From an uncultured Holophagaceae bacterium (GTDB taxonomy: Bacteria; Acidobacteriota; Holophagae; Holophagales; Holophagaceae), in assembly GCA_903857495.1 (NCBI GenBank), contig CAIOFF010000035.1:124001-188000 (forward strand): a DNA stretch of 64,000 bases, read 5' to 3'. The notes beneath the pieces were generated by a model, which did no database searches, was not told where the DNA came from, and saw only the letters and a program-made list of their open reading frames with translations. Made by a program: the position numbers and the translations under genes. This document shows positions 24,271 to 25,725 of the stretch, piece after piece (the stretch's first letter is position 1; every line of letters starts with the position of its first letter).

Positions 24271-25725
24271 ATGCTAAAGAAAGTCGCCATCTTTAAGGCC
24301 CTTGATGTGGAAATCAAGAAGCAGAGGGGCCCCGTGGCGGTAAAGGACGGTTACAAGGGCCACCACTCCCTGAAAGAAGAGCTCAGCCAGCCTGGAATCA
24401 CCATCTTGGGTGAAGTCGCCGGGGGGGATCCGGGTCGCGGGCAGGTCCGGGAAGCCTACAAGGCGTCCACTCACGCGAAGAGCCTGGCCGAAAACGGTGC
24501 CCGGGCCCTGTCGGTCGCCACAGACAAATTCCTCTATTACGGCGACGACAAACACCTCTCCGAAGTGCGTGCCCAGGTGAAGCTGCCCCTGATCCGCCGC
24601 GAGTTCATCTTTGAGGAATACCAGGTCGAGGAGAGCAAGATCCTCGGCGCCGATGCCATCTACCTGATGCCGGCGCTGCTCTCCCAGGACCGCCTGCAGA
24701 CCCTCCTGAAATTTGCCACCAGCAAGGGGCTAGACGTCGTGGTGGAGGCCACCTCCGAAGCCGAGCTGCAGCGCGCCCTCGAGGCGGGGGCCGACATCAT
24801 CTGTGCCGTGGGCCGCAACCTGGACACCTGGGAGGCGTCCTGGGACCAGGCCATCGCGCTCGTCAAGAAAGTGCCCAAGAGCTGCCTGAAAATGATCGAG
24901 GGCGGCATCCAGCGTCTGGAGCAGATCAAGCAGGCGGAGGCCCTCGGCCTTCACGGCCTTTTGATCGGCGACGCCCTCCTCGATGACTACTATCCCGGCA
25001 AGCGCCTGGCCCAGATCCTGGCCGGCGTGGAGCCCCCGAAAAAAGCCGCGAAGCCCAAGGGCAAGACCGGCTCTGCCGCAGACGCGGCGCAAGCCCCCAC
25101 GGCCGTTCCGGCGGCCAAGGAACGCATATCCACCCCGCGGAAAGAGCCGGTCCAACCTGGCGCGAAAGATGCCAAGGGCAAGCCGTCTTCCCGCACGACC
25201 CCTTCCAACCCCGCCCAAAAGGGCGTAAAGGAGCCACCCATGGCCGAAACCCCCCTCCTCCCTCCTCCCGCTGAAGCTCCGAAGCCAGCGAAGAAGGCCG
25301 CCCCCAAGAAGCCAGCCGCCAAGAAGGCCGCCCCCAAGAAGGCTGCCGCCAAGAAGCCGGCTGTGAAGAAGGCCGTGAAGAAGGCCGCGCCGAAGAAGGC
25401 CGCCGCCAAGAAGCCGGCTGTGAAGAAGGCCGTGAAGAAGGCCGCCCCCAAAAAGGCCGCCGTGAAGAAGGCCGCCCCCAAGAAGGCCGCCGCCAAGAAG
25501 CCGGCCGTGAAGAAGGCTGTCGTGAAGAAGGCCGCGCCGAAGAAGGCCGCCGCCAAGAAGCCGGCCGTGAAGAAGGCCGCGCCGAAGAAGGCCGTTGCCA
25601 AGAAGGCCGCGCCGAAGAAGGCCGTTGCCAAGAAGGCCGTTGCCAAGAAGGCCGCCCCCAAGAAGGCCGCCGCCAAGAAGCCCGCCGTGAAGAAGGCCGC
25701 CCCCAAGAAGGCCGCCAAGAAGTAG
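24271..25725 (+). CDS. IGPS (TrpC)-like TIM-barrel domain fused to histone H1-like Lys/Ala/Pro tail
   Basis: N-terminal ~250 aa: [23 protein letters not shown]...[33 protein letters not shown]...[36 protein letters not shown]...[31 protein letters not shown]-terminal [17 protein letters not shown] repeats. Confidence 0.88.
25240..25725 (+). CDS. possible alternative translation product: free histone H1-like protein (161 aa)
   Basis: In-frame ATG at 25240 preceded by AAGGAG (25228-25233) with 6-nt spacing; product [29 protein letters not shown]... Confidence 0.45.
25279..25722 (+). repeat. degenerate tandem repeat encoding KKAAPKK/KKPAVKK units
   Basis: Repeated aagaaggccgc(c/g)cc(c/g)aagaaggccgcc-type units. 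Confidence 0.9.

Follow-up and report, generated by a model that had tools for sequence, protein, structure and literature searches.

The window, a stretch of 64,000 nucleotides from an uncultured member of the Holophagaceae (Acidobacteriota of soil and sediment), carries on its plus strand a single unbroken reading frame from ATG to TAG, in which an IGPS (TrpC)-like barrel is followed by a tail rich in Lys, Ala and Pro (Table 1). The first-pass annotation had read the frame as a TrpC/IGPS-like barrel joined without interruption to a histone H1-like tail, and had named a frameshift or an assembly error as what would undo that reading. The reading is borne out, and such an error is excluded because the same open frame occurs in dozens of separate genomes, some of them represented by a single contig.

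Table 1. Features of the fusion gene and of its downstream flank (window coordinates).
Feature	Position	Strand	Description
Full-length ORF, barrel + linker + H1-like tail	24271–25725	+	484 aa, 50.9 kDa, net charge +67
IGPS-derived barrel, residues 1–253	24271–25029	+	Net charge −1; K→A50, K→R110, N→V180, S→G211; E48, E159, R182, E210, G233 kept
Linker, residues 254–323	25030–25239	+	51–78 codons across orthologues; no in-frame stops
GCCC-N4-GGGC inverted repeat, possible hairpin	25213–25224	+	Conserved; 3 nt 5' of the Shine-Dalgarno sequence
Internal Shine-Dalgarno sequence AAGGAG	25228–25233	+	In 54 of 55 orthologues reaching the site; missing in genome G060
Possible start-codon hairpin GCCA-N4-UGGC	25233–25244	+	GUUCC-N4-GGAAC in other genera
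Predicted nested product, free H1-like protein	25240–25725	+	161 aa, 16.2 kDa, pI 11.3, net charge +59
Near-perfect GC-rich inverted repeat between the fusion gene and eno	25758–25785	+	Terminator or leader element; link to the system only possible

The phylogenetic spread of the fusion, which the first-pass annotation had left to be checked, is that of a family trait: the gene is present in all 11 sampled genera of the Holophagaceae and was not found in the other Acidobacteriota compared. The latter almost always have one IGPS copy; Holophagaceae usually have two. Where contigs are long enough, the gene order is conserved as upp (on the opposite strand), fusion gene, eno, an ftsB-like gene, dapF and parA. 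No upp was seen in the reduced genomes, where the fusion gene is preceded by an rnc-like gene. Near 16 eno loci of sister families, no stand-alone H1-like ORF was found upstream of eno. The inverted repeat between the fusion gene and eno has the form CAGAGAGGCGCG-CTGG-CGCGCCTCTCTG without a T run, and folding of positions 25740–25800 gave −37.4 kcal/mol; a terminator scan made no call at this repeat.

The fusion gene was not seen in genome G013, but real gene loss was rejected because the contig starts less than 600 bases from eno, so that the gap accounts for the absence. It was likewise not seen in G012 and G042, where real loss is possible. On contig C51 of genome G012 (L159), an enolase-like gene lies directly behind an IstB-type transposition ATPase-like ORF, unlike the upp–fusion–eno order; it is perhaps a second eno, or the contig may be misbinned. 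The fusion or its barrel is doubled in three single assemblies, G016 (C52, C98), G027 (C38, C43) and G031 (C15, C95), probably reflecting mixed strains in the MAG. Many MAG contigs stop within the repetitive tail and leave an open 3' end. The tail repeats thus break assemblies, and annotation can easily overlook or split the fusion gene.

The barrel belongs to the IGPS family by profile and by fold. Pfam IGPS (PF00218) matches residues 29–239 (E = 1.4e-47, 162 bits against a cut-off of 27). The NCBIfam TrpC equivalog models rank first, but all fall far under their cut-offs (best score 176.8 against 260 bits). An AlphaFold model of the barrel has a mean pLDDT of 79.5, with residues 1–30 unsure; in the PDB and by Foldseek it is matched best by IGPS structures, either natural or engineered. 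Active-site residues were compared between 55 distinct orthologues and 22 TrpCs, using the numbering of the window protein. Lys50, Lys110, Asn180 and Ser211, which we take to correspond to catalytic Lys53 and Lys110, and then to Asn180 and Ser211, of the Sulfolobus solfataricus enzyme, are all present in each of the 22 TrpCs; not one of the four occurs in any of the 55 orthologues. In the window protein they are replaced by Ala, Arg, Val and Gly, respectively. The active-site glutamates E48, E159 and E210 (presumably Glu51, Glu159 and Glu210 in S. solfataricus numbering) are conserved in orthologues and TrpCs alike, apart from Gln for E159 in two orthologues; R182 and G233 are also kept in the orthologues. 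The first-pass annotation had read the barrel motifs correctly and had noted the replacement of the first Lys, of the second (by Arg), of the Asn and of the Ser in ESG; profile search and active-site alignment, which it had proposed, extend this loss to the whole family. Because these residues are absent from every orthologue, it is very unlikely, given what is established for the enzyme, that the barrel carries out the IGPS reaction. The protein is thus a trap for annotation, scoring as TrpC without the residues for the reaction.

A second IGPS gene in the same genome is a canonical trpC (G000:C7:71560-72210). It adjoins a trpD-like ORF, has trpA nearby, and shows the canonical motifs AEYKQGSPS, YKGF, INARNL and ESG. 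The barrel did not descend from this TrpC, as the tree places the latter elsewhere: the orthologues form one clade with full support, separate from trp-operon TrpC, on a stem of 1.48 changes per column, after which the clade is strongly conserved. For the barrel, dN/dS is about 0.07, and 0.013 for the N-terminal 33 residues. In three reduced genomes of genus g9 (0.9–1.2 Mb), trpC and trpA gave no detectable match and the fusion gene is the sole IGPS-like gene, which argues for a role independent of tryptophan synthesis. The idea of a repurposed barrel put forward in the first-pass annotation gains support from the separate trpC in the trp operon, from the family-wide residue loss, from the long stem followed by conservation and from retention in genomes without detectable trpC or trpA. 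The barrel may now bind a small molecule, probably a phosphorylated one, with the retained glutamates, Arg182 and Gly233 as contacts.

Pfam HC2 (PF07382) matches residues 344–482 of the tail (E = 6e-12, 46.5 bits against a cut-off of 40), although the score is under the cut-off in many orthologues. The NCBIfam Hc2 model (19.4 against 135 bits) and the Burkholderia H1-like equivalog (32.9 against 80 bits) both miss their cut-offs. As the NCBIfam Hc2 score is so far below its threshold, the likeness to Hc2 may be compositional. Judged from its composition, the tail presumably binds nucleic acid; its target may be DNA, RNA or polyphosphate. Tails from genus g7 (G052, G060) are far less basic, with a net charge of +13 to +20, where about +60 to +70 is usual.

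The linker contains a predicted ribosome-binding site and start codon for the tail alone. AAGGAG, 6 nt and a start codon (25228–25242 in the window, with ATG at 25240) are found in 54 of the 55 orthologues reaching the site, 53 with ATG and one with GTG; these coding sequences, 77 kb in all, hold only two other AGGAG–start combinations. The constraint acts on nucleotides. Codon identity in excess of expectation peaks, for the whole gene, in windows starting at residues 308–321, and dS is 0.026 at residues 307–323, compared with 0.26 in the preceding linker and 0.68 in the barrel (about 26-fold higher). The motif codons AAG and GAG are each invariant (54/54; background 70% and 57%), and the Pro codon of the spacer is CCA in 45 of 46 cases, while CCA makes up 9.5% of Pro codons in these genes. 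Residues downstream of the internal start vary freely (dN 0.31). Since synonymous sites outside the motif have diverged widely in these genes, shared descent alone does not explain the constraint on the motif.

Two observations count against a second product. In genus g7, AAGGAG is followed by GTG (G052, G102) or the motif is missing (G060), and the tail is much less basic; nested product and strongly basic tail seem to have been weakened together, so a free product is not required everywhere. Further, the internal site outranks every other start context of the gene in just 14 of 54 cases, because lysine codons of the tail mimic Shine-Dalgarno sequences. In the reduced genomes, the nested frame encodes 29–33 residues. 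We also considered a programmed frameshift that would terminate the barrel early. It was rejected, as the +1-frame TAA beside the Shine-Dalgarno sequence is confined to one genus and shifts frame or vanishes elsewhere. Another linker stretch with raised synonymous conservation lies at 25111–25143 (around residues 282–291, CCCCGCGGAAAGA) and is found again in genus g9, whose genomes are reduced.

Inverted repeats accompany the internal start. GCCC-N4-GGGC stands 3 nt before the Shine-Dalgarno sequence in 52 of 54 orthologues, whereas 51.8 kb of sequence from further upstream in these genes holds five copies, and its loop is often of the GNRA type in other genera. The repeat formed between the spacer and the start region exists in two versions, GCCA/UGGC and GUUCC/GGAAC, a pattern suggestive of compensatory change. 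Compared with synonymous shuffles, the folding energies are just modestly lower (mean z of the MFE −1.2). The data are suggestive of RNA structure at the internal start; a strong structure was rejected, since the hairpins recur but their stability is not decisive.

The linker has 13 different lengths across orthologues, every one in frame, and its 3751 in-frame codons hold no stop, compared with 68 and 80 stops in the other two frames. Hence the barrel–tail fusion is also maintained, and ribosomes that start at 24271 must run on into the tail, so that two products are predicted from one frame. We consider it probable, from comparative sequence evidence, that one Holophagaceae gene gives rise to both a 51-kDa barrel–tail fusion and a free 161-residue H1-like protein. 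An old IGPS (TrpC) copy would have lost the IGPS reaction, become a binding or otherwise altered barrel, and been joined in frame to a histone-H1-like tail that is intrinsically disordered. Initiation at 24271 would yield the 484-residue protein, whose tail most likely keeps the acidic-to-neutral barrel on the nucleoid, that is on DNA or on a different polyanion, for instance RNA or polyphosphate; by analogy, such tethering of a near-neutral barrel is plausible. Initiation at 25240 through its own Shine-Dalgarno sequence would yield the tail as a free protein, which by the same analogy would function as a nucleoid protein of the H1-like kind. Since the fusion gene is the sole HC2-type match in most complete genomes, the nested protein may, on this one profile, be the family's main H1-like protein. 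The first-pass interpretation is therefore supported in part, as regards the repurposed barrel; the conserved internal start, which it had missed, implies a probable second product, so that a tethered barrel would be no more than one product out of two.

An unlikely reading, in line with the first-pass annotation, is that only the full-length fusion matters, as a tethered barrel of the AlgP/PhaF kind, and that the block in the linker is a peptide motif (ARKGxKEPxMA) and no start site. The frame is indeed open in all orthologues, and AlgP and PhaF are one-chain proteins whose KPAA tails are proposed to anchor a domain on the nucleoid. A peptide motif leaves the synonymous constraint unexplained, however, namely the fixed AAG GAG, the near-fixed CCA and the depressed dS, and the residues past the start are free to vary. 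Slightly less probable still is a regulatory element in DNA or RNA (an internal promoter, an operator or a protein-binding hairpin, for example in autoregulation) to which the start codon would be secondary. In its favour, a pair of neighbouring inverted repeats flanks and takes in the Shine-Dalgarno sequence and start, and dS is lowered in the rest of the linker too. Against it, the invariant letters are the ones on which a ribosome depends, namely AAGGAG, the 6-nt spacing and the start codon; a scan found no sigma-70-like promoter in the linker, Rfam gave no match, and the hairpins exceed synonymous shuffles in stability just modestly.

Concerning the barrel itself, it is possible, if rather doubtful, that it remains catalytically active, with an altered reaction or substrate, the tail serving only to localise it. 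The retention of E48, E159, E210, R182 and G233 and the strong purifying selection would fit; the loss of both catalytic lysines, N180 and S211 in every orthologue does not, and the upp–eno–ftsB–dapF–parA neighbourhood offers no catalytic partner that would hint at a pathway. On the side of the two-product gene, we regard as speculative, and improbable as it stands, a metabolite-controlled chromatin switch in which the pseudo-IGPS barrel senses a small molecule and the hairpins at the internal start set the ratio of tethered to free H1-like protein. If true, it would couple metabolism to nucleoid compaction across a whole bacterial family.

If both proteins are made, as we infer, a single frame holds a retired metabolic enzyme and, nested in it, what is apparently the family's main histone-H1-like protein. 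Nature would then offer a clear example of an enzyme fold taken into service at the nucleoid. The gene would equally exemplify a nested bacterial gene that is maintained throughout a family, genomes reduced to some 1.2 Mb included.

Among the papers searched, none was found that links IGPS with H1-like tails or describes the fusion gene. Its parts resemble known systems. With IGPS (TrpC, PF00218) the fusion protein shares fold, profile and the retained residues E48, E159, E210, R182 and G233. It differs in lacking both catalytic lysines, Asn180 and Ser211, in lying outside trp operons, in its attached basic tail and in forming a clade of its own. The tail resembles chlamydial Hc2 (HctB, PF07382) in its lysine/alanine-rich repeats of variable length, and scores above the Pfam cut-off here; Hc2 stands alone, whereas this tail is fused to a barrel. 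AlgP and PhaF of Pseudomonas, whose KPAA tails bind DNA, likewise combine a folded N-terminal domain with a disordered tail that is rich in K, A and P and some 150 residues long (PMC9239181). The N-terminal domain of AlgP is putatively alpha-helical, whereas that of the fusion protein is a TIM barrel (IGPS), and in contrast to AlgP and PhaF there is a conserved putative internal start for the tail alone. A long and a short C-terminal form from one frame are described for SpaO and SpaO-short and for the AerR isoforms (PMC13059759, PMC6199135). The 65-kDa form of ClpA arises at an internal in-frame start and gives the same pairing of forms. Unlike in these genes, the predicted short form in Holophagaceae belongs to a separate functional class, an H1-like protein nested in a pseudo-enzyme gene and conserved family-wide.
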